Source: Aurantibacillus circumpalustris (GTDB lineage: Bacteria > Bacteroidota > Bacteroidia > B-17B0 > Aurantibacillaceae). Taken from it: a stretch of 64,000 bases of DNA. Location of the stretch: NCBI RefSeq assembly GCF_029625215.1, contig NZ_CP121197.1, forward strand, positions 2,976,001 to 3,040,000, read 5' to 3'. The notes below the pieces were generated by a model. The model made no database searches. It saw nothing but the letters and a program-made list of their open reading frames with translations, and had not been told where the DNA came from. Made by a program: the position numbers and the translations under genes. This document shows, piece by piece, positions 3,660 to 59,490 of this stretch (positions are counted from its first letter, which is position 1; each line of letters opens with the position of its first letter).

Positions 3660-4928
3660 ATGAAAATAAAAAAATATATAACCTCTCTGTTCTTGATGAC
3701 GGTGGCTTTGGCGCTCGGTCAACAACAAACGTTGTATACAAATTATTTAATGAATCAATATCTCTATAATTCAGCATATGCTGGGGTGGAGGATGGTACA
3801 CAATTTAATATTGGTTATAGAAATCAGTGGGTTGGATTTGATGGGGCACCCAAAACCTTTATGCTGAGTGGTTATGGTAAGCTTAAGAAAAAACCAAACA
3901 TGGCGCTGGGAGCACTTATAATGACCGAGCAAATAGGGTTGCTTCAAAAAACTAACTTTTATGTGAGTTACAGTTATCATTTAAAAATTAATAAAAAAGC
4001 AGCCATTAATTTTGGCTTGGGCATTGGTGGCATTCAACATAAATTAAGAGTTTACGATGCAAAACCTTACGACCATGACGATAGTTTTTTAAGATCTGAT
4101 GTTTTGCGCGCCTTGTCTTTTGACGCGAATGCTGGGTTTTATTTTTATACCAAGAATTTCTTCCTAGGGTTTAGCGATCAGCACATGATTAATTCTAAGC
4201 TTTATTGGGATAATTCAACTGGAAGAAACACAACACATTTTTATGCCTACACAGGTTATAATTTTCATCTTAATAAAACGTGGGTTATTCAACCAACCAT
4301 TTTAGCACGCACAAATAGTCCTGCACCATACCAGTTAGAATATAATGCACGGATTATTTACGACGATATGATTTGGGCAGGTTTCAGCTACCGCCATACC
4401 TCTTCAGCCTGTTTTATGATAGGCTGTAAAATAGATAACCAGCTAAGTTTTGCCTACAGTTACGATATTACTTTAAGCGCTTTGAAAAAATACTCAACAG
4501 GAAGTCACGAGATCGTAGTGTCTTATTTGATACCGTTTAAGAAAAAGAAATCTAAAAGTGATTTGATACAAGATGCCGATGAAGAAGAATTAAATAAGAT
4601 TGATAACTCATTAAAAACGAATTTAAAAAGTAAAAAGAAAAAAGAAGAAGACTCTAATAAAAAGGAAGAGGAGAAAGAAAAACCGGTGGAGACTGAAATA
4701 CAAAAAGTTGAGGAACCTACTCCAGAAACAATTACTGAACCAAAATCAGAAGAAGTTGCACCGGATAAAATATCAGAACCAGAAGTGAAAACCGAGTCAG
4801 AAACAACTTCTGAACAAGCACCTGAAGCAACGGTGCCGACTGTAATTGAAGAACAACCAACCAATACTCCTGATTCTGAAATAAAAAAAGAACCAGAAGT
4901 TAAAACCGAAACTGAACCTAATAATTAG
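3660..4928 (+). CDS. SprF/PorP family T9SS outer-membrane protein with charged tail
   Basis: This is an outer-membrane beta-barrel protein of the PorP/SprF family, which pairs with T9SS type B cargo. The ATG at 3660 is preferred over an upstream TTG at 3621 because it starts directly on a signal peptide ending near ALGQQQ. The N-terminal sequence QYLYNSAYAGVEDG and the following RNQWVGF are typical of the family. The barrel ends around residue 300. About 120 further residues follow, very rich in Lys, Glu, Pro and Thr, which the paralogue at 8964 lacks. The gene lies 45 bp after one type B cargo gene and 1 bp before the next, so co-expression is very likely. The tail could be periplasmic or surface exposed; the sequence does not say which. 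Confidence 0.87.
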   Translation: MKIKKYITSLFLMTVALALGQQQTLYTNYLMNQYLYNSAYAGVEDGTQFNIGYRNQWVGFDGAPKTFMLSGYGKLKKKPNMALGALIMTEQIGLLQKTNFYVSYSYHLKINKKAAINFGLGIGGIQHKLRVYDAKPYDHDDSFLRSDVLRALSFDANAGFYFYTKNFFLGFSDQHMINSKLYWDNSTGRNTTHFYAYTGYNFHLNKTWVIQPTILARTNSPAPYQLEYNARIIYDDMIWAGFSYRHTSSACFMIGCKIDNQLSFAYSYDITLSALKKYSTGSHEIVVSYLIPFKKKKSKSDLIQDADEEELNKIDNSLKTNLKSKKKKEEDSNKKEEEKEKPVETEIQKVEEPTPETITEPKSEEVAPDKISEPEVKTESETTSEQAPEATVPTVIEEQPTNTPDSEIKKEPEVKTETEPNN

Positions 4929-45443: not shown

Positions 45444-45480
45444 TGTCAGAAACCCGCCATTTTTTGTCGTTTTTCCGACA
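45444..45480. promoter_or_regulatory. Compound palindrome, site B
   Basis: Four half-sites TGTCAG, CCGCCA, TGTCGT and CCGACA are spaced 4, 5 and 4 bp, for a total of 37 bp. It lies upstream of the bactofilin-like gene. Confidence 0.65.
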
Positions 45481-45979: not shown

Positions 45980-46059
45980 TTAATGTAGTTTTAATCAATA
46001 AGTTTGATAAACCATATGGATACCCCTTGCAAAGCTAAGCTAAATGTGCGGGTATACCG

Positions 46060-46095
46060 TGGCGGATTCCCGACATTACTTGTCGGAAAACGACA
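46060..46095. promoter_or_regulatory. Compound palindrome, site C
   Basis: TGGCGG-N4-CCGACA is followed after 5 bp by TGTCGG and a shifted ACGACA. The inner CCGACA-N5-TGTCGG core is perfect. It lies about 80 bp before the start of the gene at 45979. Confidence 0.7.
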
Positions 46096-46147
46096 TCATG
46101 TTTACAGCGTTTTATTTTTTTTTAACCATAGTGGCTGGCGATTAAGT

Positions 46148-46765
46148 CTACTTTTTAAAATAATTTATCCAAAGTTCATTTCGATATATGGTTGAATGAT
46201 TAATTTTATTTTTTAAAGATGGATAGTTTTTAATTAAGTTGAACTTAACTGTGTTAAAAACAGATTCGGGCATTTGTTGACTAAAGGTTATTCTTCTTAT
46301 AATTTCAATGGGTACTTTAATTTCAAAATAGGGTTTCGTTGATTTTCCTTCCCAGATAACGCGGTATTCTCTTTCAAATTTGTAGGGTAGTCTTTTTATA
46401 AAAGGAAAATCTTTTAGTTTAAACGGTTGCATTTCTTCGTTAATGCTTTTGTAATTCACATTGCCATGCCTTATTCCAGGTGTTTTATCAAATATTTCTG
46501 TGAGTTTGTTAGCATTAAATTCAATACAGCAACCGTTGTTTCCCTTAGCAAAGGTTTTCCAGTGATGAATTGTTTCACCTGAGTCGGTAAAGCACAGAGC
46601 GAATACACTTTTTATTTTAGCTTTTCGTTTATATTCTAAAATCACTTCGCTGTCATTTTTATCCTCCCAGGAAATTGGATCTAATAAAACTAGTTTTTGC
46701 TTCTCAAGAAAATCTAATAGTATGGGAAGCGTTGTAAAGCGATTTAAATTGATTAAATTTTTCAT
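46148..46765 (-). CDS. DUF2971 family protein
   Basis: This protein of about 206 residues has DUF2971 hallmarks: the N-terminal hot-spot LINLNRF, WEDKNDSE, CFTDSGETIHHWKTFAKGNNGCCIEFN and FEREYRVIW. Members often occur in defence or mobile contexts, but their function is unknown. The ATG at 46765 fits the family start; a longer frame from 46831 would overlap the preceding gene by 29 bp. It probably shares a transcript with the Cys-rich protein gene upstream. Confidence 0.8.
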   Translation of the reverse strand: MKNLINLNRFTTLPILLDFLEKQKLVLLDPISWEDKNDSEVILEYKRKAKIKSVFALCFTDSGETIHHWKTFAKGNNGCCIEFNANKLTEIFDKTPGIRHGNVNYKSINEEMQPFKLKDFPFIKRLPYKFEREYRVIWEGKSTKPYFEIKVPIEIIRRITFSQQMPESVFNTVKFNLIKNYPSLKNKINHSTIYRNELWINYFKK

Positions 46766-46802
46766 AAACGGATCAGCTATTTTAGGTAGACATTCAAATT
46801 CT

Positions 46803-47171
46803 CTAACCCCCATGTTGCCAGCATTTGCCATTTGTGATTTTGGTCATTCGCTTACATCTGCTTCCTGCCTTTGTTGTTGCCGTACATTGGCTTGATACGG
46901 CATTTTTTTCTGGTGTATTATAAGTAGTAGGTGAGGGCTCGGTTTTGTTTTTTTGAACGCTGACAGATTGTGCAGGTGCGCATACTTTACAGGCATCGTA
47001 ACCTTGCAACAAAGCATCTTTTAATTCAATAGAAAATTTACTGTGACTTAAATACCTGCAATCTCCCTGATGATATTTGGCTCCTGTTTTGGTTATATAA
47101 ACCGGTTGAGCTTGCAATGAATTTGCAAGTAAACTAACAAGTAAAAAAGAGAGTAATACAATTTTTTTCAT
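46803..47171 (-). CDS. Secreted Cys-rich small protein with DUF5763-like tail
   Basis: This 122-residue protein has a signal peptide (ending LQAQP). It contains a first Cys pair in HQGDCRYLSHS and GYDACKVCAP, a pattern resembling Ada-type zinc-binding modules. After a Thr/Pro linker comes a second module, CTATTKAGSRCKR followed by CWQH, resembling DUF5763. The two Cys/His sets suggest metal binding. The function is unknown. Confidence 0.72.
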   Translation of the reverse strand: MKKIVLLSFLLVSLLANSLQAQPVYITKTGAKYHQGDCRYLSHSKFSIELKDALLQGYDACKVCAPAQSVSVQKNKTEPSPTTYNTPEKNAVSSQCTATTKAGSRCKRMTKITNGKCWQHGG

Positions 47172-47228
47172 ACACTTGTTTTTATGTTAAGTAGTACTGT
47201 TTTTTATTCAGTATTATTAAGCATTGTA

Positions 47229-47705
47229 TTACACAAAGCCTTTATACTCTTCACCAAAATGCATTTGATATAATAATTTTGTTTCTTCTATGGCTTTTTT
47301 AAATGAAACGCTGGCTAATTTTTTATTTAAAAATATGAGAGGAGAATGGTGCAAGAAATATCCAAAAATGGTTTCACAATCTTCGGCATATTTTTTAGTG
47401 TGTAGAATGTGTTGATTCCAGAATTTGTCGATGAGTGTATTTGGTATAATGTCTTTATACTTAAAGGCACGTTTTAAGGCTAAGAATCTTTTGTATTCTT
47501 TTTCTACTTTTTCGCAGGTTGAGAGAGCCCAACCTTCCCCTTCTTCTTTGTCGATTAGTTGTAATTTAATAAGTTCAAAATTGAGTGCGTTGATATCTTC
47601 AAAATCGAGATCACTCGAAAAATTGAGATCGCAAGAATCTAAAACAATGCGTGTTTTGTGCTGATTCTCTTTTTGTTTTCCTTTTTCAGTGTTTCGTAGT
47701 TGCAT
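47229..47705 (-). CDS. Glycine-rich domain-containing protein-like (GRDP) protein
   Basis: This cytoplasmic protein of about 158 residues has the core of the GRDP-like family (PF07173): EYKRFLALKRAF, a run of about 15 residues, then DKFWNQHILHTKKYAEDCETIFGYFLHHSP. The ATG at 47705 is used; a frame from 47732 adds nine residues. In other genomes similar proteins are short, like this one. The function is unknown. Palindromic site D lies about 55 bp upstream, the closest spacing to any gene in the set. Confidence 0.78.
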   Translation of the reverse strand: MQLRNTEKGKQKENQHKTRIVLDSCDLNFSSDLDFEDINALNFELIKLQLIDKEEGEGWALSTCEKVEKEYKRFLALKRAFKYKDIIPNTLIDKFWNQHILHTKKYAEDCETIFGYFLHHSPLIFLNKKLASVSFKKAIEETKLLYQMHFGEEYKGFV

Positions 47706-48074
47706 TTTAGTGGGTTTAGAAATTAGGACCAAGTTACGGGATTAAAACATGCTGTAGGTGTCGGATTCCCGACATTTTATGTCGGAAAACGACGGGAGTT
47801 TTTTGCTTTTTTTAATGAATTAATTAATGTTGACGGTAGTCTAATTGATGTCAAATTAAAAAGAAAGTAATAATGCGAAATTTTATGCGGCCTTGAATTT
47901 TTGTACCTTTTTTTCAAAAGAAAAACTCAAAACCTGCCACTAAAAAAACTTAGGGTTTTAAAGTATTTAACTTGACGCTCATTCGAGCCATCTGGACATG
48001 GTGAAATGAAATAAAACAAAAATTCTTTGAGCTTTAACATCCAATCATAGCTGAAAAATGTCATCTCTAGAAGA
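47706..48074. other. Intergenic region with palindromic site D
   Basis: This gap of 369 bp separates the GRDP-like gene from the end of the LuxR-type regulator gene. Apart from site D it is AT-rich with no further gene or terminator that I can support. Confidence 0.5.
47759..47794. promoter_or_regulatory. Compound palindrome, site D
   Basis: TGTCGG-N4-CCGACA, 5 bp, TGTCGG, then a degenerate CGACGG. The inner CCGACA-N5-TGTCGG core is perfect. It lies upstream of the GRDP-like gene. Confidence 0.75.
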
Positions 48075-48734
48075 TTATTCATCAACAGTAATGTAATTGT
48101 GTTTTAAAGCGAAAAGAATAAGTCCGGCGGAAGTTTTTGCGTGGGTTTTTTCGTAGAGGCTTGATTTATAGCGTTCGATGGTGCGTTCTGTGACCTGCAT
48201 TTCGGATGCAATCTCTTTAGTGAGTTTATCCGCACATATTAGAATGAGGGTTTCTTTCTCTTTGTCAGTTAAGACTAAATTATTAAAGGTTGGGTTTATA
48301 GCTTTTAAAGCGAGAAGTTCTTTTAAAATGCTGTGATTTATTTTTTTATCAAAAAAATATCCCAAGCTACTCACTTCATGAATAGCATTCATAAACGTTT
48401 CAAAATCGGTGTTTTTTGGTAAAAAGCCTCTTACGCCTTTTGCTGTTAGGTCTTTTATAGAAGAGTTTTCAAGAAGCATACTCATCACAATGATTTTACA
48501 CTGAACCTTATTCTTTGCAATCCATTCTAATGTTTGCCAGCCATTCATAACAGGCATTTGCAGGTCTAAAATAATAAGGTCTGGTTTTGTTTTCTTAATA
48601 ATTTCTATTAAAACTTTTCCGTTTTCTGCAATTCCGACTACCTGAAGTTTTTTATCTGTTTCTATGCAACGTGCTAAACTTTGTGAAACTAAGGTGTGAT
48701 CGTCGGCTATAGCTATTTTAATTTTGTTTGCCAT
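48075..48734 (-). CDS. NarL/FixJ-type (LuxR HTH) response regulator
   Basis: This is a transcriptional response regulator of 219 residues. The receiver domain has Asp11-Asp12 and phospho-acceptor Asp57 (LDLQMPVMNG). A LuxR-type helix-turn-helix occupies about 148-215 (LTDKEKETLILICADKLTKEIASE, ERTIERYKSSLYEKT). It overlaps the HisKA_3 kinase gene by 17 bp, so the two form one signalling pair. It is one of only two DNA-binding regulators seen in the window and the only one inside the signalling island, which makes it the obvious candidate for the palindromic sites. Confidence 0.93.
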   Translation of the reverse strand: MANKIKIAIADDHTLVSQSLARCIETDKKLQVVGIAENGKVLIEIIKKTKPDLIILDLQMPVMNGWQTLEWIAKNKVQCKIIVMSMLLENSSIKDLTAKGVRGFLPKNTDFETFMNAIHEVSSLGYFFDKKINHSILKELLALKAINPTFNNLVLTDKEKETLILICADKLTKEIASEMQVTERTIERYKSSLYEKTHAKTSAGLILFALKHNYITVDE

Positions 48735-49536
48735 GTGAGTGCGGTAATCTTATTAAAACCTGTGTGAGATTGTTTGTGCTCGTGTAGTTTAAAGTTCCTT
48801 TTAGTAGTTCAATTCTGTTTTGAATGCTGCTTAAGCCAATGCCTTTATTTTGTTTAATAAGCACTTCTACATGTTCATTGGTAAAGGCTTGACCGTTGTG
48901 TTCAAATTTAATCTCTAATGAATTAAAAGTCTTGGTCAAAATTACATTTAAAGTACTGCAATTACTATGTTTAATTAAATTATTAAGCACCTCCTGAAAA
49001 ATTCTAAATACGTTAAGTATCTTTTCTTGGTTAGTGCCAATGTCTGAATCTTCGATATCACTTTTAAAAGTAGTTTTAATGATGCTGCTATCATTAATAC
49101 GCTTAATTAAATCCTTTAGTGTTCGAATAATACCCTGGTTTGTAAGAGCAATGGGGTAAAGATCTTTACATATTGCAGAAATTGTAGCGATGGTATGATC
49201 GAGGTTGTTGAGTTCTATTCTAAAATTATTTTTTTCTTCATCGGTACCTTTCATAAAAAAAAGATATTTTGAAAAATTTAATTTCAACATTGAGAGCTCG
49301 GCACCAACACTGTCGTGAAGGTTTTTGGCGATACGGTTACGTTCTTCTTCTTGTCCGGAAATGATTGCTTTTAAAATTGCCTGTTCTTTTTCATTTTCTA
49401 TACGTTGCAATGTATTTTGCTGAATGAGGTATTTTTTACGGTGAGAGGTAACAAAATAAATAACCAGTATCGCTATGCCAAACATGATAATGGCACCCAC
49501 CAAAACGATTATAACGATTGAGTCGCTTTTTTCCAT
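48718..49536 (-). CDS. HisKA_3-type sensor histidine kinase
   Basis: This kinase of about 272 residues starts at the ATG at 49536 with one transmembrane segment (IVIIVLVGAIIMFGIAILVIYF). A coiled coil leads into a HisKA_3 dimerisation domain with the acceptor His in NRIAKNLHDSVGAELS. The HATPase (EVLNNLIKHSN, GIGLSSIQNRIELL) is intact. It lacks a sensor domain, so the sensing part may be the membrane protein encoded just upstream, with which it overlaps by 28 bp. Together with the LuxR regulator it forms a NarX/NarL-type pair. Confidence 0.92.
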   Translation of the reverse strand: MEKSDSIVIIVLVGAIIMFGIAILVIYFVTSHRKKYLIQQNTLQRIENEKEQAILKAIISGQEEERNRIAKNLHDSVGAELSMLKLNFSKYLFFMKGTDEEKNNFRIELNNLDHTIATISAICKDLYPIALTNQGIIRTLKDLIKRINDSSIIKTTFKSDIEDSDIGTNQEKILNVFRIFQEVLNNLIKHSNCSTLNVILTKTFNSLEIKFEHNGQAFTNEHVEVLIKQNKGIGLSSIQNRIELLKGTLNYTSTNNLTQVLIRLPHSHGKQN

Positions 49537-50165
49537 TTTAGTAAACCTACCGCTAATAAACAATTATAAATGACATGTGCAAAGTTGTGTATGATCCACA
49601 AGTGTTTTATCGGTCCATGTGCTCCTGGTGCTGTTATATAATTCATGACAAGAAAAAGAGATAATACGATCGAAAAATAGATGAGTAAAGCCGTATTGAA
49701 CCAAAAAAAATAGTATTCGGTGAGGCTAGGAATCTCTGTGTTGTTTGTGAGTTTGGAGAAGTAAACGATGCTCATAATAATAAACACGAGTGCTTTAAAG
49801 GTGTTGATGTGTGCGTAAAAATCACCTAAACTCAGTATTGAAAAGAAAGGCAAAAGAAAATAGGCCATAAAAACAACCGCAATTGTAATAAAAAGCGGTC
49901 GAAGTTTGGGTGAATTCCATTGTAATTCAAAAACGAATAAAATGGCTAAAAATTCCACAAACGTAAAACCGTTTATTAAATAATAATTGGTGTAAATAAT
50001 GTGTAAAGATGCGAAAAAATCTGCCGAAAAGGAGACGATTAAATAAAAAAGCAAAACCTTTAACTGAAGATTAAGGGTTTTGCCTTTGATAAAAAAATAA
50101 ATGCATAATGGTAGGATGGTACTGGCAACTGAAAAGTATGTCATTATGTTATATGCCAGTTTCAT
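49509..50165 (-). CDS. Multi-TM membrane protein, possible sensor partner
   Basis: This integral membrane protein of 218 residues has six to seven predicted helices and no catalytic motif (IMTYFSVASTILPLCIYFFIKG, SLTEYYFFWFNTALLIYFSIVLSLFL). It overlaps the kinase gene downstream and starts 3 bp after the stop of the small conserved protein gene. This tight arrangement suggests it is the membrane sensor or signal-transfer part of the system. I did not recognise a named family. Confidence 0.75.
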   Translation of the reverse strand: MKLAYNIMTYFSVASTILPLCIYFFIKGKTLNLQLKVLLFYLIVSFSADFFASLHIIYTNYYLINGFTFVEFLAILFVFELQWNSPKLRPLFITIAVVFMAYFLLPFFSILSLGDFYAHINTFKALVFIIMSIVYFSKLTNNTEIPSLTEYYFFWFNTALLIYFSIVLSLFLVMNYITAPGAHGPIKHLWIIHNFAHVIYNCLLAVGLLKWKKATQSL

Positions 50166-50168
50166 CTT

Positions 50169-50480
50169 TTATCCGTTTAGTGGACTAGTATTATCGCAAT
50201 TACTTGGACATGGTGCAGACATGTCCAAAATAACACCACTATACAAATCCTTTTCATCAGCATCCGCTCCTACAAATACCAATTGTTTATTTCCATCTGC
50301 ATCTATGCCATAATACGCTCTAATACCAACGCATCCATTCTGGTTTAATATGTCCATGAGTTTGTTTTTACCAAAAAAATGGGCTTTTGTTTCATTAGGA
50401 TTATTTGTTCTGTAATCACTTGTCATTTCAGTTGCCACTGCTAAACTGATTGCGCTTGATTCATTTCCGTTAAACGACAT
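50169..50480 (-). CDS. Small conserved Bacteroidota protein, first gene of the kinase operon
   Basis: This 103-residue protein begins MSFNGNESSAISLAVAT and has the pattern AHFFGKNKLMDILNQ, GCVGIRAYYGID-x-DGNKQLVFVGAD. I recognise this as a widespread unnamed family of Bacteroidota. No signal peptide or membrane segment is present. A C-terminal Cys pair reads CPSNC. Its stop lies 3 bp before the multi-TM gene, so it should be expressed with the kinase and regulator. It may be the input or output partner of that pair; nothing shows its activity. Confidence 0.8.
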   Translation of the reverse strand: MSFNGNESSAISLAVATEMTSDYRTNNPNETKAHFFGKNKLMDILNQNGCVGIRAYYGIDADGNKQLVFVGADADEKDLYSGVILDMSAPCPSNCDNTSPLNG

Positions 50481-50615
50481 AAGTTTTGGTTTTAAGTTAG
50501 TTAATTTAGTTTTGGTTAATTATAAATGATGAAAAAATTCACATTTCGCTTTAAATTTTTTTACTGGCTAAAAATACCTAATTCCTATACACTAAATAAA
50601 ATACTCGGGTGTTTT

Positions 50616-50642
50616 TCGACACAACAAGTGGTTACGTCGACG
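50616..50642. promoter_or_regulatory. Compound palindrome, site G (degenerate)
   Basis: TCGACA, 5 bp, AGTGGT, 4 bp, TCGACG keep the spacing of the complete copies with several mismatches. It is placed about 135 bp upstream of the small conserved gene and the kinase operon. Confidence 0.3.
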
Positions 50643-50801
50643 TATGTTTGTTAGTGCAGTGATGGATATTTTTTTTGAGGTCAAGTAAAATGTCGAAATG
50701 CTCCAATCTTTTTTATTTCAGCATAAATTTCAAAACAAAGTTTACTAAATAATTTTAAGGCATGCAATTATGCAATTAATTCAGGTTGAGTGCACAGTGC
50801 C

Positions 50802-50962
50802 AAAAAACCCACACCTTAGCTTTGGCGTGGGTTACTGGTTTTTTTTGGGTTTAAATGTTAGGATTATAACAACTAACACAACTAACTTTGACGAAGATAT
50901 TGTAAAAAAATTGTATTTTTTAAAAATGTCGAATTCCGACACAAAATGTCGGAAATCCGACA
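50802..50962. repeat. Composite repeat E: hairpin plus compound palindrome
   Basis: A stem ACCCACACC / GGCGTGGGT (50807-50832) followed by TTACTGG and a T run is followed, 95 bp later, by palindromic site E. The block at 59335-59490 has the same order, orientation and hairpin-to-palindrome spacing. The two lie on opposite sides of the CheR-CheB-kinase cluster. Confidence 0.65.
50927..50962. promoter_or_regulatory. Compound palindrome, site E
   Basis: TGTCGA-N3-CCGACA, 5 bp, TGTCGG-N4-CCGACA. All four half-sites are well preserved, and it is nearly identical to site F at 59455. Confidence 0.75.
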
Positions 50963-51241
50963 TTTTTTAAACTCAATTAAGAAAATAGTGGTCTGAAAGC
51001 ACTTTGTCTTTGAGAAATTGCTAATTTTTTCTTTAAATCGTTCGTGAATTATTGGAAATTGGCACTTAATTACGGTCTGTAAACCGCTCTTAAACGTAAT
51101 TACGTATGTAAAAACTGAAAGATTCCAGAACTGGGAGATTCTCTTTAAAATGGCCGAGCAGGAAGATTAGTTGTTCTTTTATTATGACAATGCCTTATTC
51201 AATTTTTTGATCTTGTAGTTACAAACTTTACAAAATTATCA

Positions 51242-52336
51242 TTAAGGTCTAATTTTTTGTATTGGGAGTATGATGCTAAAAACGGAACCTATACTTTTTT
51301 CACTAACCACCTCAATGGTGCCGCCCAATTTTTTTATACTAGTTTTTGCAATATATAAGCCGAGCCCAGAACCAAATGAATGTTGGTTACCGCGGAAATA
51401 CATGTCAAAAATATTATCCAAAACATCTTTTTCAATACCAATACCGTCGTCTGTTACCTTAATAACAAGTTCATTTTTTATTTGGGATATGTCAATGTTA
51501 ATTGTAGGACTAGTGTTTCTGTGATCACGAAATTTTACAGCATTTTGTATAATGTTATACAGAGCAAGTTGAAGAATTACTTCATCAAAATAAACTAGGC
51601 CTACTGTGCAATTTAATTCCCAATTCAGATCAATTGTTGGTTCCTCCAATGTTATTCTTTTCCTAATGCTATCTATTAACTTTCGCAAATCAATTTCTTT
51701 GTAAATCGGTTTTCCATTTTTAATGGACATTACATCCATTAACGACAGTAAAATAGAATCGAGTTTATTTGCGCATTGCGAAATTTTAAGAATATAATTT
51801 TCTGTATTTTCCGGCGAAGCTTTTTCATTGGCCATATTAATGAGCCCCAAAATTGAGCAAACGGGTCCCCTCAGATCATGCGCCGCCTTGTAAATGAACG
51901 TGCTCAGTTCTTTGTTGACAAGTTCTAACTCAGTATTGGCAATTCGTTTTTCAGATTCAATTTTTCTTGACTTAAGTGCTTGAGCAATTGCTGAAGGTAA
52001 GCGTGTTAAATTACCCTTTAGTAAATAGTCATCGGCTCCTTCTTTTATACTTTGAATGGCGAACTCTTCTGAAACTGTTCCTGTTACAAGAATAAAGGGT
52101 ATTTGGTAATTAAACTTTTTGTAAATTTTTAAAGCTTCAGATGAGTTAAACTGAGGTAAAGAGTGGTCAGATAATATTAGGTCTGGGGCATCACTTTCTA
52201 AGGCTTCAACAAACTTTTCTTTGTTTTGCGCTACTTTAATAGTAAAAGCGGAGTTAGTTTTTTTTAAAAATCTCGCAATTAATTCCGCGTCAGCTGGATT
52301 GTCTTCAAGATGAAGTATTTTTAAAATTGCTGCCAT
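51242..52336 (-). CDS. Receiver-histidine kinase protein
   Basis: This 364-residue protein has an N-terminal receiver (HLEDNPADAELI, acceptor Asp in LILSDHSLPQFNS), then a HisKA domain (acceptor His in AAHDLRGPVCS) and a HATPase (NIIQNAVKF, DDGIGIEKD, GSGLGLYIAKT). No membrane or sensor domain is visible, so it probably receives phosphate or signal from the neighbouring kinases. It is the last gene of the cluster. Confidence 0.92.
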   Translation of the reverse strand: MAAILKILHLEDNPADAELIARFLKKTNSAFTIKVAQNKEKFVEALESDAPDLILSDHSLPQFNSSEALKIYKKFNYQIPFILVTGTVSEEFAIQSIKEGADDYLLKGNLTRLPSAIAQALKSRKIESEKRIANTELELVNKELSTFIYKAAHDLRGPVCSILGLINMANEKASPENTENYILKISQCANKLDSILLSLMDVMSIKNGKPIYKEIDLRKLIDSIRKRITLEEPTIDLNWELNCTVGLVYFDEVILQLALYNIIQNAVKFRDHRNTSPTINIDISQIKNELVIKVTDDGIGIEKDVLDNIFDMYFRGNQHSFGSGLGLYIAKTSIKKLGGTIEVVSEKSIGSVFSIILPIQKIRP

Positions 52337-52352
52337 TTAATTTTTTGTTTAT

Positions 52353-52799
52353 TTAAATTTGATTTATTGATTCGTTCAGAAATACCCAATACAAACCCAA
52401 ATCGGAAATTGATTTGGAAAAATTTTCAAAGCCCACCGGTTTAACAACATAACTATTTGCACCAAGATTGTAGCAAGTTCCTATATCTGCGTCTTCTTTT
52501 GACGAAGTGAGGATAACAATTGGTATTACCTTTAAGTTATCGTCAGACCTTAACTTGCGGAGCACTTCAATACCATTTACTTTAGGCATTTTAAGATCTA
52601 AAAAAATAACTTTAGGTATAACGTTTAGAGTTCTTTCTTTATACGCTCCCGTTCCAAAAAAGAAATCCAAGGCTTCAACACCATCTTTTAAATGAACTAT
52701 ACTGTTTATGTTATTGTTTTTCTTTAGAGCGCGGATTATCATTTCCGCATCATAAGGATTGTCTTCAATTAAAACAATTTCAATAGACTTCGTTTCCAT
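52353..52799 (-). CDS. Rcp1-like single-domain response regulator
   Basis: This 148-residue receiver has IEDNPYDAEM, phospho-acceptor Asp68 (FLDLKMPKVNG) and the Lys in VVKPVG. An insertion between strands 2 and 3 (FFFGTGAYKERTLNVIP) is typical of Rcp1-type regulators that pair with phytochrome-like or hybrid kinases. It has no output domain. It is 11 bp downstream of the receiver-kinase gene at 52811. Confidence 0.93.
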   Translation of the reverse strand: METKSIEIVLIEDNPYDAEMIIRALKKNNNINSIVHLKDGVEALDFFFGTGAYKERTLNVIPKVIFLDLKMPKVNGIEVLRKLRSDDNLKVIPIVILTSSKEDADIGTCYNLGANSYVVKPVGFENFSKSISDLGLYWVFLNESINQI

Positions 52800-52810
52800 A
52801 ACTAGTATTT

Positions 52811-53926
52811 TTAAATAGTTGGTAATGTAAAACTAAAAGTAGCGCCCTCACCAAGTTTAGCTTGAGCCCAAACTTTGCCGCCGTGTTTGTTAATTATGCG
52901 TTGAACTATAGCTAAACCAACTCCTGTTCCTTCAAATTCCTCTTGAGAGTGAAGCCGTTGAAAGACACCAAATAGTTTATCTACATATAGCATATCAAAA
53001 CCAACTCCATTATCCTTGATTTCATAAATTACTTCTCCGCTTTCTGTTTTTGAACTTATCTCAATAAGTGGATTTGTTTTCTTTGATGTATATTTTATTC
53101 CATTTGATATTAAATTAAGTAACACCTGATTAATAAGACTAGGATCTCCCATTGCCGGGCTTAAATTATTTACTTTTACTTTTGTTTTTTTCTTATCTGT
53201 TTTAAGCACTGTATTCAATATATCATCAATAAGTATATTCATATTCAGTTCTGTTTTTTGAACAGTTTTTTTACCTAATCTCGAAAAAGCCAAAAGGTCA
53301 TCAATTAAAAAGCTCATTCTTTGTGAATTAAACTGTATCGCATTAAGCAATCGAACACCTTCGTTGTCGAAAAGCTCACTATAATCCTCCTCTAACATTT
53401 TTGCATATCCGTCTACTGCTCTTAATGGTGCTCTTAAATCATGAGAGACAGAATAAGAAAATGATTCTATTTCTTTATTTGAATATTCAAGTTCTTTATT
53501 TTTCTTTTCAAGGTTTTTATAAAGTTTAAATAACTCTATTTCCTGTTGATGTTTCTCAACAAAAAATTTCACTTTATTAATTAGAATTTCTGGTTGAAAT
53601 GGTTTTGTTATAAAACTAAAAGCTCCTTTTTCGTATCCTTTAAAAACATTTAAATTATCAGTGTAAACCGCAGAAATAAAAATAAAAGGTAAATGTGCTG
53701 TTTTTTCTTCTTCTCTTAGTATGCTAGCTAATTCATAACCATCCATGTCGGGCATTTGAACATCAAGTAATGCTAGAGTAAAATCGTTGTACAAAGTTGC
53801 CTTTAGAGCATTATTTCCACTTGAAGCTTCAACAAGTTCTACATCCAAATCTCTCAGCACTTTTCTTATTGCGACTAAATTTTCTGGTTTGTCATCAACT
53901 ACCAATATTTTTGGTTTTATATTCAT
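52811..53926 (-). CDS. Receiver-histidine kinase protein
   Basis: This 371-residue protein consists of a receiver (VVDDKPENLVAI, LLDVQMPDMDGYE, the Lys in ITKPFQ), a coiled-coil linker, a HisKA domain (SYSVSHDLRAPLRAVD) and a complete HATPase (LISNGIKYTSKK, DNGVGFDM, GTGVGLAIVQRI). The ATPase type resembles bacteriophytochrome-like kinases. It has no sensor domain and sits between two other receiver proteins, so a phosphorelay is likely. Confidence 0.93.
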   Translation of the reverse strand: MNIKPKILVVDDKPENLVAIRKVLRDLDVELVEASSGNNALKATLYNDFTLALLDVQMPDMDGYELASILREEEKTAHLPFIFISAVYTDNLNVFKGYEKGAFSFITKPFQPEILINKVKFFVEKHQQEIELFKLYKNLEKKNKELEYSNKEIESFSYSVSHDLRAPLRAVDGYAKMLEEDYSELFDNEGVRLLNAIQFNSQRMSFLIDDLLAFSRLGKKTVQKTELNMNILIDDILNTVLKTDKKKTKVKVNNLSPAMGDPSLINQVLLNLISNGIKYTSKKTNPLIEISSKTESGEVIYEIKDNGVGFDMLYVDKLFGVFQRLHSQEEFEGTGVGLAIVQRIINKHGGKVWAQAKLGEGATFSFTLPTI

Positions 53927-53952
53927 AAACGTTTCTGTTAAAAATTAAAATA

Positions 53953-56900
53953 CTATTTGCTTAGCCAAACCCTCAATAAGGAAAGCATACGTTCACTATC
54001 AATAGGTTTGGTAATATAATCGTTAGCCCCAGCATCTATACATTTTTGTTTGTCATCTTTCATTGCTTTTGCCGTAAGAGCAATCACTGGTAATTCTTTA
54101 AATTCATCTTGGGCTCTTATCCTTTTCATTGCTTCATATCCATCCATTTCAGGCATCATTATATCCATTAAAACAATGGCGATATCCTTGTTCTTATCTA
54201 AAATTTCAAGTGCGGTTTTACCGTTATCAGCTTTTAAGATTTCCATTCCGTGTTCCTTTAATATTTTTGATAGAGCAAATACGTTTCGCATATCATCATC
54301 AACTAACAAAACTTTTTTTTCATGATAAATTGCCTCCTTATCGTACAATTTATTTATTATAGATTGTTTTGATTCAGGTAAATTGCTGATGGTTCTATGC
54401 AGAAATAAGGCGGTTTCATCTAAAAGACGCTCCTCAGATTTTACACCTTTAATAATAATACTCTCGGCATATTTTTGCAGTTCGTAATTTTCTTCTTTTG
54501 TGAGTTCCCTACCTGTATAAATAATGATAGGTGAAATACTATCCTTTAAATTCTCGAGTTTATAAATAAGGTCAAAACCGGTCATATCTTGTAAACCAAT
54601 ATCTAACACAATACAATCAATGTGATTTTTCTGATATAATTCTATAGCTTCGTGTCCCGTTTCGGCTTCAAAACACATTACATCTCCATTGCCAATTAAT
54701 TTCTTAATCGCCGTTCTTAAGTTTTGGTCATCTTCTACAATAAGAAGGTTTTTCATTTTTCTATTTACAAAATTCTCAATCCTGCCAAAGGCTTCATCTA
54801 AATCCTTTTTATCTACTGGCTTCCTTAAGTATTCGATAGCCCCTTCTTTAATGGCCGCTAATGAACGTTCGTTTACCGACATGATGTGAACCGGTATATG
54901 TCTCACGGCAGGATTTTCTTTCAACTCTGTCAGCACCTTATAGCCATTAATTCCAGGGAGATCGATATCAAGAATGATGGCATGTGGTTTATATTCTAAT
55001 GCCAGTTTTAATCCGTCTTCGCCTGTTGCTGCCGTTAAACATTTAAATTCATTTTTCTTTGCCTGTTTTAAAAGTATTGAAGCAAATTTTAAATCATCTT
55101 CGATTATTAACACAACCTTATCTTGGTTGGTTATTGTATTTCTATCATCATCAATTGTTGGATAGTTCAAAAATTTGCGACTATTTTCAGTTGATGGCGT
55201 TAGCACATTAGTTTCGGTAATGGAGTCTGAATCGAACTGTTGGTTTTCTTCACGTATTTCAAAGGGGAGTATAAGCGAAAAAGTGGAACCCTTTTTTACT
55301 TTACTACTAAGTTTTATTTCTGCACCAAGCAATTTTGCCAGTTCACGTGAAATAGACAAGCCTAAACCTGTGCCGCCAAACTTTCTTGAAGTGCCTCCGT
55401 CGGCCTGCTGAAAAGCCTCAAATATGGAGCTCTGTTTATCTTCTTGTATTCCTATGCCAGTATCAATAATTGAAATAATAACTTTGTCTGAATCAAGTTT
55501 GTTTATAGTAAGCGTTACACTGCCTTTTTCGGTGAATTTTATAGCATTGGCTAAAAGGTTTTTTAATATCTGGTTTAAACGCTGTGAATCTGATCGAATA
55601 GTTTCTGGTAATCCATCCTCAAGGCTAAAAGATAGTTTCAATCCTTTTTCTTCAGCATTATATTTAAAATCGCGCACCAGTGTATTTGCCAACTTCCTCA
55701 AAGAGATACTTTCTATATTTATCATCATTTTCCCAGCTTCTATCTTAGAAAGATCAAGCACTTCATTAATTAGTACGAGTAAATCTCGTCCGCTCTTATA
55801 AATAATTTCAGCACTTTCAATCTGATCTTCATCAAGATTTTTCTTCTTGTTTTCGGAAAGATCTTTCGATAAAATCAATAAACTGTTTAGAGGCGTTCTT
55901 AATTCATGTGACATATTTGCCAGAAATTCCGATTTGTATTTACTACTTACCTCTAATAGTTTTGTTTTCTGTTCAATATCATTTTTTGCAGCTTCTACCT
56001 CTTGGTTTTTTACTTCTAAAGATTGAGTTTGATCTTCCAATTCCTTGTTAGTTATTTGTAACTCCTCCTGCTGTTGTTTTAAACTTTGAGTCTGCTCCTC
56101 AAGTTCTTCATTCATCTGCCTTAACTCTTCTTGTTGTGAAAGCAGTTCTTCACTTTGAACTTGGGTTTCTTCGAGCAATTGACTAATACGTTTTCTCGCA
56201 AATGCTGAATTAAAGCTCAAAGCAATGCTTTCCATTGCAATTCTAATGAACTCTTTTTCGGTTTCGGTAATGGGGGTTAATTTTCCTATTTCAATCACAC
56301 CTAATGTTCTTCCTTCAAAAACAAAAGGAATGATTGACAAGTTTTTGGGTTTGGTATTTAAAATGGCAGAGCTAATGCGCATTTCTTCTGCCTCGATTTC
56401 GTCCAAATAAATTGGCTTTTGCACGCTCGCGGCCTGTCCAATTAATCCTTCACCCATAACGAATTGTTGTTTTACATTTTTTGGCGATAAAAACGCATAA
56501 CTAGCGGAAAGGAATAGTGAATTGTCATTTTCATTTAGTAAGTATATTGCTCCAATATTCCCTTTTATATAAGTAGTTAGAAAGGTTATTGTTTTGGTTG
56601 CCATCTCTTCTATTCCTTTGTCGCCCATCAATCCATCAACGAGTTGATTTTGCCCTAATGTAAGCCAATTATGTTTTTCGTTAGCGGCAGTGGTTTCCCG
56701 TAATGAGGTGGTCATTTCTTTTAAGGCTAAGCCCAAAACATCGCGATCAGACTTCGGCTTTATGGTAACATGATAATTACCTGAGGCGACATTATTGGCG
56801 CTTTGAGCTATTTCCCTGAAGCTTTCATTTATATTAATAAGGGCGTTAAATACCGTTCTCAACTCATCATTTGTTTTATCTTCCGACCGTTCCTTTGTAA

Positions 56901-57585
56901 ATTCTCTACTTGCAATTTTTTCTGCTTCCTTTGTGATAAATGAAATTCTTTTTGTAATGTTTTGAGTAATTGAATAGGAAATAAACAAAGCAATGATTAA
57001 GCTCGAAATAATTAAAAAAAATACAGTATTAAGGGCACTACGGTAAGCCTTATCATTACGTATTTGATCTTCGCTCATTTTAATTTCATTTTTATTAACA
57101 AGACTTCCCAATTGCTGTATTACAACTGTCTTTGTTTTAGAGCTCTGATTGACTGAAATTTCGAAAGCCTTTTCGGGTTCATTTTGCAAAGAATATTCTA
57201 CAATTTTATTTAGGTTGGGTCTGAATTTTACCCATTCAGTTTTAAATGCTTCCAGCACCGTTTTACCTTCATTGTCAACAATATTTTCAAGTTCGAGGGT
57301 TTTCTTATCCACCGAGTCTAATGCCTGATAAATGAGCTTTTTATAAAACTCCATCTTTTCAGGGTTTCTTTCTACAATAATATTTTTTTCATGGCGAGTT
57401 ACCTGAAGCACATAAATCATTATTTCGTTAGATAGATTAATTTTCCGTGCCGAAACATTTACGAGGTATTTTATTCGGTCGTTAGATTCAGAGTTTTTGC
57501 TTATCATAACAAACGCGCATGCGATAAACAGCAGTAAAATGAAGGAAAGTCCGAATTGTAATTTTCTTTTAATGGATAGATTCAT
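53953..57585 (-). CDS. Large hybrid sensor kinase with GAF and three receivers
   Basis: This 1210-residue membrane kinase has TM1 (about 12-32), an extracytoplasmic CHASE3-like helical region (about 35-185), TM2 (about 186-208), HAMP (about 209-305), GAF (about 325-460) and a long coiled coil (about 465-555). HisKA follows with acceptor His560 (NMSHELRTPL), then HATPase (about 660-780). Three receivers lie at about 830-945, 950-1065 and 1085-1207. Receiver 2 has VLDIGLQDMTG and a less standard Lys region. This layout is typical of the hub kinase in CheB/CheR-linked Bacteroidota clusters. CheR and CheB encoded upstream may adjust the signal by methylating it or a partner. Confidence 0.93.
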   Translation of the reverse strand: MNLSIKRKLQFGLSFILLLFIACAFVMISKNSESNDRIKYLVNVSARKINLSNEIMIYVLQVTRHEKNIIVERNPEKMEFYKKLIYQALDSVDKKTLELENIVDNEGKTVLEAFKTEWVKFRPNLNKIVEYSLQNEPEKAFEISVNQSSKTKTVVIQQLGSLVNKNEIKMSEDQIRNDKAYRSALNTVFFLIISSLIIALFISYSITQNITKRISFITKEAEKIASREFTKERSEDKTNDELRTVFNALININESFREIAQSANNVASGNYHVTIKPKSDRDVLGLALKEMTTSLRETTAANEKHNWLTLGQNQLVDGLMGDKGIEEMATKTITFLTTYIKGNIGAIYLLNENDNSLFLSASYAFLSPKNVKQQFVMGEGLIGQAASVQKPIYLDEIEAEEMRISSAILNTKPKNLSIIPFVFEGRTLGVIEIGKLTPITETEKEFIRIAMESIALSFNSAFARKRISQLLEETQVQSEELLSQQEELRQMNEELEEQTQSLKQQQEELQITNKELEDQTQSLEVKNQEVEAAKNDIEQKTKLLEVSSKYKSEFLANMSHELRTPLNSLLILSKDLSENKKKNLDEDQIESAEIIYKSGRDLLVLINEVLDLSKIEAGKMMINIESISLRKLANTLVRDFKYNAEEKGLKLSFSLEDGLPETIRSDSQRLNQILKNLLANAIKFTEKGSVTLTINKLDSDKVIISIIDTGIGIQEDKQSSIFEAFQQADGGTSRKFGGTGLGLSISRELAKLLGAEIKLSSKVKKGSTFSLILPFEIREENQQFDSDSITETNVLTPSTENSRKFLNYPTIDDDRNTITNQDKVVLIIEDDLKFASILLKQAKKNEFKCLTAATGEDGLKLALEYKPHAIILDIDLPGINGYKVLTELKENPAVRHIPVHIMSVNERSLAAIKEGAIEYLRKPVDKKDLDEAFGRIENFVNRKMKNLLIVEDDQNLRTAIKKLIGNGDVMCFEAETGHEAIELYQKNHIDCIVLDIGLQDMTGFDLIYKLENLKDSISPIIIYTGRELTKEENYELQKYAESIIIKGVKSEERLLDETALFLHRTISNLPESKQSIINKLYDKEAIYHEKKVLLVDDDMRNVFALSKILKEHGMEILKADNGKTALEILDKNKDIAIVLMDIMMPEMDGYEAMKRIRAQDEFKELPVIALTAKAMKDDKQKCIDAGANDYITKPIDSERMLSLLRVWLSK

Positions 57586-57586
57586 A

Positions 57587-58165
57587 CTAACTTGCTAAAT
57601 TGTTTTGTTCTAATTGTATTAATAAATCAACTATTTTTTTAAGCGGCAAAATGTGATCAGGTTTGGTTGTCGCAATGGCAGCTAAAGGCATAGTATTTGA
57701 TTCTGCTGTTTCTGGGTCCTCAACTACAACTAAACCGCCATATTCCTGAATTCGTTTTACGCCAGCAGCGCCATCTTTATTTGAGCCCGTTAGAATTATG
57801 CCAATGAGTTTGTCTTTATATGCGGCTGCCGCAGATTCAAAAAGCACATCAATGGAGGGCCTGGCGAAGTTAACTCTTTGATCAATCGTTAACGAAAAGG
57901 TTTCGTCCATTTCAACTAACAAGTGATAATTGGCAGGTGCTACATAAACATTGCCCAGTTCAACTTTTTCTTTTTCACGTACTTCCTTTAATTTAAGATT
58001 GCTAGTTGTGTTTATGAAATTTATCCACATATTATCAGAACGGGCACCTATATGTTGAACAATTATTATCGGGATACTGAAAGTAGACGGCAAGGATGCA
58101 AACAATACCTTCATCGCATTCATACCTCCTAACGAAACACCTATGACAATTGCTTTATACTGCAT
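57587..58165 (-). CDS. cheB: Stand-alone CheB methylesterase domain
   Basis: This 192-residue protein is only the CheB catalytic domain, without the receiver of classical CheB. The catalytic triad is intact: Ser11 (GVSLGG), His38 (VQHIG) and Asp131 (GSNKDGA). It lies 1 bp downstream of the hybrid kinase start and 16 bp downstream of cheR. With no CheA, CheW or MCP gene in the window, it is probably part of a non-chemotaxis signalling system. The symbol refers to the domain family. Confidence 0.93.
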   Translation of the reverse strand: MQYKAIVIGVSLGGMNAMKVLFASLPSTFSIPIIIVQHIGARSDNMWINFINTTSNLKLKEVREKEKVELGNVYVAPANYHLLVEMDETFSLTIDQRVNFARPSIDVLFESAAAAYKDKLIGIILTGSNKDGAAGVKRIQEYGGLVVVEDPETAESNTMPLAAIATTKPDHILPLKKIVDLLIQLEQNNLAS

Positions 58166-58181
58166 TACTTGAATTTAAAAT

Positions 58182-59033
58182 TTAATATTTTTTCTTAAAA
58201 ATTTTATGTTTACTGTCTAGTTCGTTATACGTAGTATGTGCATTATTAAAGCGCAGGCTCTCTTTAGAACCCAAGCAGAGTATACCACCCTTAATAAGAC
58301 TGGCGTTAAAAAGAGAATGTACCTTGTTTTGAAGATTTCTATCAAAATAAATTAAGACGTTTCTGCAGAAAATCATTTGTACTTCTGCAAACACACTATC
58401 TGTAACAAGATTATGATTAGCCCAAACTATATTCTTCCCTAAAGATTGATGCATAATAACATTATCATAACTGGAAGTGTAATATTTACTAAAAGATTCT
58501 TTGCCACCAGATAGTTGATAGTTTAGTGTGTATTCTTTCATTAATTCGTTTGAAAAAATACCTTGTTTAGCTCTGTTCAAAGCTTGCTGATTAAAATCTG
58601 TTGCATAAATGGTAGCACGATCGTACAAACCTTCTTCTTTTAAAATAATTGACATGGAGTAGGCTTCTTCACCAGTTGAGCAACCAGCATGCCAGATTTT
58701 AATAAAGGGATATGTTTTTAAAATAGGTATTACTTTTTCGCGCAGAGATTTGTAAAACTCGGGATCGCGGAACATTTCAGTGACTGTAATGGATAAATCT
58801 CTTAGTAATTCGGCCGCGAACGTTTCATCGTGTAACACTTTTGCGTGTACCTCGGTAACATTTTTTAACCCAGTAATAAGCATTCGGTTATTAACCCTAC
58901 GTGCAATATGAGCCTGAGAATATTGCCTGAAGTCATATCCGTGTTTTTGATATATTGCATCAAGGAGAAGGGAAATTTCAATATCTAAATTATCTTTGTG
59001 CGGTGTCATATTAAAGAAAGTACTAACAAGCAA
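58182..59033 (-). CDS. cheR: CheR-type methyltransferase
   Basis: This 283-residue SAM-dependent glutamate methyltransferase has both CheR domains: the N-terminal helical part (YSQAHIARRVNNRM) and the catalytic part with WHAGCSTGEEAYSM (SAM-binding), ATDFNQQALNRAK and FCRNVLIYFD. An in-frame ATG at 59009 is an equally good start and would give 275 residues. It heads the CheR-CheB-kinase cluster. Palindromic site F lies about 420 bp upstream. Confidence 0.93.
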   Translation of the reverse strand: MLVSTFFNMTPHKDNLDIEISLLLDAIYQKHGYDFRQYSQAHIARRVNNRMLITGLKNVTEVHAKVLHDETFAAELLRDLSITVTEMFRDPEFYKSLREKVIPILKTYPFIKIWHAGCSTGEEAYSMSIILKEEGLYDRATIYATDFNQQALNRAKQGIFSNELMKEYTLNYQLSGGKESFSKYYTSSYDNVIMHQSLGKNIVWANHNLVTDSVFAEVQMIFCRNVLIYFDRNLQNKVHSLFNASLIKGGILCLGSKESLRFNNAHTTYNELDSKHKIFKKKY

Positions 59034-59334: not shown

Positions 59335-59490
59335 ATACACGCACCGCTTGCTTCGGTGCCGATTACTGGCTTTTTATGGGTTAAATTTTAATGCTTCACG
59401 AAACAAAATATTTCTGGCATAAAGTTAGGTTAAAAAAATGCATTTTTTTGATGTTGTCGAATTCCGACACAACATGTCGGAAATCCGACA
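59335..59490. repeat. Composite repeat F: hairpin plus compound palindrome
   Basis: A stem GCACCG / CGGTGC (59341-59359) followed by TTACTGG and a T-rich run comes 96 bp before palindromic site F. It matches block 50802-50962 in order, orientation and spacing, though the stems differ in sequence. Confidence 0.65.
59455..59490. promoter_or_regulatory. Compound palindrome, site F
   Basis: TGTCGA-N3-CCGACA, 5 bp, TGTCGG-N4-CCGACA; differs from site E at very few positions. It lies upstream of the cheR-cheB-kinase cluster. Confidence 0.75.

Follow-up and report, generated by a model that had tools for sequence, protein, structure and literature searches.

Four genes on the minus strand of the Aurantibacillus circumpalustris genome, at positions 48075-50480 of the 64,000-nucleotide stretch analyzed here (contig NZ_CP121197.1, positions 2,976,001 to 3,040,000; "the window"), encode a small protein (SP), a predicted seven-helix membrane protein (TM), a kinase (HK) and a response regulator (RR). 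Computational analysis of this locus and its relatives suggests, with a probability that we put at roughly 0.6, that SP and TM together form a sensor, from which the sensor-less HK transmits to RR. The four genes apparently represent a widespread, undescribed system of accessory-protein two-component signaling. Their coordinates are as follows.

50169-50480, minus strand: SP, 103 amino acids (aa), first gene of the operon; core HFFG..ILxQ..CVGIR.YYG...kQLVFVG followed by a C-terminal tail
50172-50210, minus strand: C-terminal tail of SP, C-P-S-N-C-D-N-T-S-P-L-N-G, residues 91-103; common to divergent upstream partners
49509-50165, minus strand: TM, 218 aa, seven-helix membrane protein, predicted N-out/C-in; proposed receptor
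48718-49536, minus strand (ATG at 49536): HK, 272 aa, HisKA_3/HATPase_c, one N-terminal transmembrane segment, no sensor domain
48075-48734, minus strand: RR, 219 aa, NarL/LuxR-type response regulator, receiver plus GerE

The preliminary description of this locus had proposed a four-gene operon and a kinase with one transmembrane segment and no sensor domain, and both hold. SP and TM are separated by 3 bp, TM and HK overlap by 28 bp, and HK and RR overlap by 17 bp; a single hydrophobic segment precedes the H-box of the window HK. HK consists of HisKA_3 and HATPase_c and RR of Response_reg and GerE (LuxR), all four above Pfam cut-offs, and HK with the adjoining RR is a two-component system of the NarL/HisKA_3 class. 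SP and TM each have a single match in the whole genome. The 3-bp gap, together with the lack of any terminator-like site seen between SP and TM in the window, argues against separate transcription of SP. The gap is similarly short in relatives (median 7 bp; at most 100 bp in 129 of 136). An Rfam scan of positions 46000-53000 returned no RNA elements at gathering thresholds.

Co-occurrence of SP and TM was assessed at two levels. Among 87 genomes of the window genome's family, SP was found in 41 and TM in 42, with both in 41 (Fisher p 3.7e-24); the only family genome with TM and no SP (G054) carries a TM that is a 27-residue fragment. In a phylum sample of 296 genomes, an SP-profile match was present in 34, a TM-profile match in 59 and both in 33. 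The small protein could have proved rarely adjacent to kinases elsewhere; instead, a survey of its gene neighborhoods found the order SP-TM-HK-RR kept in relatives. The window and 60 extended loci, several of which stop at a contig end, contain 62 SP frames, behind which 46 TM, 53 HK and 51 RR stand in the expected places. TM-profile genes follow SP in 74 of 80 loci of named genomes (hand count; several are the same contigs as in the 60-locus set), and the six exceptions comprise three at or near a contig end and three with an unrecognized stretch before HK. Even SP matches as weak as E ~1e-5 elsewhere in the phylum still have TM, HK and RR behind them wherever the locus was extended. Because the same-strand order recurs in distant genomes, the four-gene arrangement is more than chance.

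The best 80 of 105 SP relatives include Pontibacter, Hymenobacter, Pedobacter and Mucilaginibacter, and also metagenome-assembled genomes labelled KSB1, Zixibacteria, Ignavibacteria, Calditrichaeota, Neomarinimicrobiota and Gemmatimonadales. SP had been described as a member of a widespread, unnamed Bacteroidota family; it is widespread and unnamed, but given these other phyla it is not limited to Bacteroidota. The window SP and TM match no Pfam family up to E=1 and nothing in NCBIfam, and searches of Pfam, NCBIfam, PADLOC and PDB sequences gave nothing convincing for either family. Seven of 66 SPs have a DUF6968 match (best 6.2e-4) and one of 60 TMs has a Ceramidase match (3.3e-3); both are treated as unproven. 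With regard to anti-phage defense, PADLOC gave no match for SP or TM and weak ones only for HK (0.022) and RR (0.0015, 0.0042). As for a mobile origin, SP relatives were not found in IMG/VR (pattern-based scan), phages or plasmids (Pontibacter SP query only). The AlphaFold2 model of SP, from an alignment of the window protein and relatives, comprises two helices and a beta hairpin (predicted local distance difference test score, pLDDT, 90.7). No convincing fold relatives were found in the PDB (best Foldseek E 0.17, VIA Z at most 2.8), which does not by itself mean a new fold.

Some loci depart from the simple order. Two Hymenobacter loci (L197 and L199) read SP-TM-SP-TM-HK-RR, L282 has several TMs in a row, and tandems of the SP-TM-SP-TM or SP-TM-TM(-TM) kind precede one kinase in L282, L283 and L299; the tandem receptors of these five loci look as if they form hetero-oligomers. 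One open frame of ~250 aa in L280 (G183; 3908-4660) holds two tandem SP-profile matches, and another in L186 (7914-8648), likewise twice the usual length, has a stronger SP score.

A search starting from TM was also used, to avoid the bias of an SP-led search. Twenty family TM loci were picked for having no SP match nearby in the first SP search, with other, partial or lower TM matches of the family search left out. A further 57 loci from the phylum carry a TM not met in the earlier, mostly SP-found loci and are SP-poor by construction; the phylum TM list comes from a search scoring at most 10 candidates per genome, with 29 new loci read and 40 more fetched. The directly upstream open reading frame (ORF) has CPx(1-6)C within its last 50 aa at 18 of the 20 family loci and 23 of the 57 phylum loci, against 13 of 1967 control ORFs (at least 120 aa, from the same loci). 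For CP or PP within the last 40 aa, the corresponding figures are 17/20, 44/57 and 165/1967. Typical partner C-termini are YDFSYPCPPTC, LDLNAPCPATC, NHGGLCPPLTNC and MNYGNIGRPP. In SP itself (66 aligned rows), C91, P92 and C95 are present in at least 90% and L101 in all. Three of five divergent-partner groups align to SP by hhalign (single-pair E 4.8e-13, 6e-7 and 1.8e-6), and for group D3 the match excludes the tail. Since most of these TM-first loci carry tailed upstream proteins, the common denominator is a tailed partner plus TM rather than the exact SP sequence.

Of 168 related kinases, 158 have a single hydrophobic segment ahead of the H-box, 8 have two and 2 have none; sensing therefore probably takes place outside HK. 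The outputs themselves vary, as seen in ten picked proteins run through Pfam, which are not a census. SP-TM precedes PAS-HisKA kinases (L282, L284), a hybrid kinase (L279), a PAS-HisKA_3 kinase (L094) and a PAS-LuxR protein with an N-terminal hydrophobic stretch (L162); other SP-TM loci have, behind a kinase, an RR-AraC protein (L145) or a receiver-only RR (L157). In L339 and L366, TM and a divergent tailed partner stand before LytS-type kinases, followed in L339 by a LytTR regulator; the L339 partner has a tail of the PP kind, which the stricter tests miss.

These exchanges bear on the role of SP, for which the preliminary description, taking TM as the sensor, had offered ligand, inhibitor or product of the pathway. 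A sensor with a dedicated partner is supported; a product is disfavored, because SP remains paired with TM where the kinase and regulator are different ones. The same observation makes it improbable that SP serves chiefly as an output or effector that shares a transcript with TM-HK-RR, is under their control and stands outside sensing. Such a role would suit the first gene of the operon and a protein with no fold or family match, but SP also co-diverges with TM rather than with HK or RR, and a similar tail recurs across otherwise unlike partners.

Co-divergence was measured as partial rank correlations between distance matrices of 102 four-gene loci. Neighboring genes gave 0.33 (SP-TM), 0.34 (TM-HK) and 0.53 (HK-RR), and non-neighbors 0.01 (SP-HK), 0.09 (SP-RR) and 0.19 (TM-RR). 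This chain matches a relay from SP through TM and HK to RR, but equally the order of the genes, which makes linkage a confounder. Taken with the co-occurrence, the gene order, the pairing with other outputs and the sensor-less kinase, the SP-TM correlation points to TM as the sensor and SP as its dedicated partner.

For TM, the proposed receptor, the AlphaFold2 model (pLDDT 92.0), again built from an alignment of the window protein and relatives, has seven helices and superposes at near full length on rhodopsins and G-protein-coupled receptors (GPCRs), at best with Z 14.4 and a root-mean-square deviation of 4.2 Å over 208 residues. Every one of the 1000 Foldseek candidates had a Z score of 2 or more, and 960 scored 8 or more; as evidence of kinship, however, Z 14.4 is to be set against the ~13-14 that helical models reach without known kinship, and the best Foldseek E was 0.061. 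TM has no profile or sequence match to rhodopsins or GPCRs, and its alignment has no conserved mid-TM7 lysine for retinal; the residues conserved there are W190, H193, N201 and N197, the last being mostly N but H in the window protein. Thus, TM resembles microbial rhodopsins and GPCRs in its seven helices, predicted N-out topology and superposition, but differs in lacking sequence similarity and the retinal lysine and in standing beside a bacterial kinase. We read the model as showing the same helical arrangement, whether or not by kinship. Positive loop charges predict that the N terminus is outside and the C terminus inside: lysine plus arginine is higher in the inner loops whichever partner type accompanies TM (160/160 leaderless, 19/20 lipoprotein, 16/16 anchored).

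None of the columns is invariant among 60 aligned TM sequences, which gives no sign of a catalytic site and speaks against an enzyme. This matters for a quite different account, in which TM would process or export SP and the processed tail would be a secreted pheromone. A small protein with a conserved tail, a multi-helix protein, a kinase and a regulator in one operon do recall Agr and ComQXPA peptide quorum sensing. The receptor kinase of those systems is a multi-helix protein, however, unlike the kinases here with their single hydrophobic segment, and SP is a conserved folded domain in both alignment and model. With the lack of an invariant TM residue added, we regard this account as very improbable.

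The compartment in which SP meets TM is less easily read. The SP ATG is the first start codon and the frame is open for only ~12 codons before it, so no signal peptide is hidden upstream. Across 196 loci, a hydrophobicity rule labelled 160 partners as without export signal, 20 as having a lipoprotein signal and 16 as having an N-terminal anchor. These labels are crude, with errors in both directions: L268 is labelled leaderless, yet its N-terminal sequence looks like a lipoprotein signal, and the "anchors" of L265, L332 and L344 are probably unrelated ORFs. The predicted TM orientation is alike with leaderless, lipoprotein and anchored partners. Leaderless partners would either be exported by an unexplained route or act inside.

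The latter would make SP a cytoplasmic inhibitor or adaptor on the inner face of TM or on the cytoplasmic part of HK, sensing a cytoplasmic cue, with the exported partners elsewhere as a separate specialization. This is the main rival of contact at the outer face, and we consider it rather unlikely. It draws on the missing signal peptide of the window SP and of most relatives by the above rule, and on the N-terminal residues F3, G5 and E7, which are present in at least 90% of aligned SPs and fit an unprocessed cytoplasmic protein. However, the lipoprotein or anchored partners, which include some SP-profile members, accompany TMs whose orientation is the same. The related partners L354 and L365 (lipoprotein) and L362 and L363 (leaderless) have the same domain and tail. 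The export-signal state (with or without) changes at least 20 times by parsimony on a quick TM tree (FastTree, 211 of 212 TMs, 186 labelled; L258, L265, L282, L332, L334, L344 and L347 removed by hand before the count), and the SP-HK partial correlation is about zero. We favor contact of SP at the outer face of TM, with moderate confidence.

Under the favored reading, the sensor would consist of TM and SP or, in other lineages, a divergent tailed partner that is sometimes a lipoprotein or membrane-anchored. The SP tail may dock in a TM pocket lined by conserved D/E/H/N in the outer half of the membrane, and binding or loss of SP would change the TM bundle. TM would pass this change to the single transmembrane helix of HK, which would then phosphorylate the LuxR-type RR, thereby switching genes. 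The computations give the set and order of the genes, their co-occurrence, the common tail, the seven-helix model with its orientation, the pairing with other outputs and the chain-like co-divergence. We infer the physical contact, its direction (agonist or inhibitor), the compartment of the leaderless SPs, the signal and the target genes.

Several observations weigh against this reading. The canonical SPs have no signal peptide, and contact at the periplasmic face requires an unexplained export. The tail is not always present: 34 of the 57 phylum TM loci fail the CPx(1-6)C test and 13 lack CP or PP in the 40-aa test, in six no ORF of 60 aa or more lies within range upstream, and 13 of 136 SP-profile partners also fail the CPx(1-6)C test, several through lost tail cysteines. 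Two of the five partner groups are unconvincing against SP (hhalign probability 21.7% for D4 and 48.2% for D5). HK and RR behind TM are not universal either. Of 212 unique TM loci, 210 leave more than 900 bp behind TM, and HK comes next in 186 of these; 182 leave more than 2000 bp, and 151 of these have both HK and RR. Within TM, mean conservation shows no difference between the two halves of the membrane (p=0.54). Columns with at least 60% D/E/H/N/Q number 8 of 85 in the outer half against 1 of 86 in the inner half, which favors the proposed pocket, but the difference is modest (p=0.018) and the test was made only once the list had been seen. The GPCR-like match may reflect no more than a helical arrangement that is common. 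Finally, the mirror-tree order is also the gene order, so linkage alone could give the chain.

The preliminary description knew of no described system of this composition, which is nearly right. LiaFSR of Firmicutes has been proposed to form a four-component system with the surface protein LiaX, which is encoded in a separate liaXYZ operon (PMC10269926). It likewise combines an accessory membrane protein, a kinase, a LuxR-type regulator and a modulating protein (PMC10269926), and it is the closest composition found in print, without shared sensor families. The window HK scores 75.9 bits (3.3e-21) against NCBIfam LiaS, far below the cut-off of 450. Among Pfam matches at E<=0.1, the C-terminal LiaF domain PF09922, named in PMC10269926, is absent from the window TM and from 60 TMs, and the putative adhesin domain PF13349 of LiaX is absent from 66 SPs.

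The Rcs regulator RcsB is of the NarL type. The Rcs phosphorelay, RcsF-IgaA-RcsC/D-RcsB, links an outer-membrane lipoprotein, an inner-membrane protein, a kinase and a regulator (PMC12189002). Some partners of TM are lipoproteins, as RcsF is, whereas the window SP is leaderless. The RcsF and IgaA families, which we take to be in Pfam, were not found by it in SP, TM or eight divergent partners. In outline, both LiaFSR-X and Rcs work much as proposed here, and neither has a domain family in common with SP or TM as far as Pfam shows. BtsS is a 7-transmembrane receptor (PMC10653868). Along with 7TMR-DISM, LytS-type and other bacterial integral-membrane sensors, the system described here would couple multi-helix membrane sensing to kinases; it differs in that its membrane module, TM, is a separate gene, matches no family in Pfam and is paired with a dedicated protein. 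The 7TMR-DISM domain, to our knowledge a Pfam entry, is absent among matches of 60 TM members (E<=0.1). Among the open-licence PMC papers listed by our literature searches, which did not extend to subscription papers or preprints, none describes the SP-TM system.

Several features around the operon may bear on its regulation. Tandem elements, each of two TGTCGG-N4-CCGACA-like palindromes ~21 bp apart, lie in intergenic positions of the window.

50928-50962, no strand assigned: tandem palindrome element GTCGAATTCCGACACAAAATGTCGGAAATCCGACA, upstream of the operon; possible operator, candidate only
47759-47793, no strand assigned: inverted copy of the element, downstream of the operon; 89% complementary
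45444-45480, 46060-46095 and 59455-59490, no strand assigned: further TGTCGG-N4-CCGACA-like tandem elements, intergenic

Palindrome sites with at most one mismatch number 10 in the 4.6-Mb genome, 5 of them in the 64-kb window, and may be local operators or a repeat family. The tandem palindrome was not found at relatives' loci, which gave just two single one-mismatch sites (L263, L279); for this reason, an RR operator is no more than a lead. Inspection by eye alone suggested a terminator-like hairpin near 50812-50850. On the strand of the operon and upstream of it, 51242-59033 holds response regulators, kinases and CheB- and CheR-like genes (Pfam on 51242-52336, the remainder read by eye), and 46148-46831 encodes a DUF2971-like protein just under the Pfam cut-off.

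Of eight Pontibacter loci, five (L172, L174, L178, L179, L191) have curli genes immediately downstream of the cluster. The order there is csgE, an ORF in the place of csgF (identity by position), csgG and curlin, on the same strand and ~135-185 bp downstream (ORF starts); one example each of csgE, csgG and curlin was confirmed by Pfam and the rest by tblastn. The window genome has no CsgE match, so a curli output is at most lineage-specific.

TM is present in 59 of the 296 sampled phylum genomes, yet neither SP nor TM falls in a convincing Pfam or NCBIfam family. The proposed system would supply the sensor for a class of sensor-less kinases, and it would be a receptor module combined in nature with different outputs; in Pontibacter, the adjacency to curli genes suggests curli as the first phenotype of interest. 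A bolder version, tentative and in our view still doubtful, is that Bacteroidota and neighboring phyla possess a bacterial counterpart of GPCR signaling. The outward pocket of a separate seven-helix receptor would hold the C-terminal tail of a dedicated, genetically encoded protein ligand. By way of one transmembrane helix, this receptor would drive kinases that can replace one another and also a one-component transcription factor, and leaderless ligands would be exported by an unexplained route. If this were true, the system may report on neighbors, kin or the state of the envelope.

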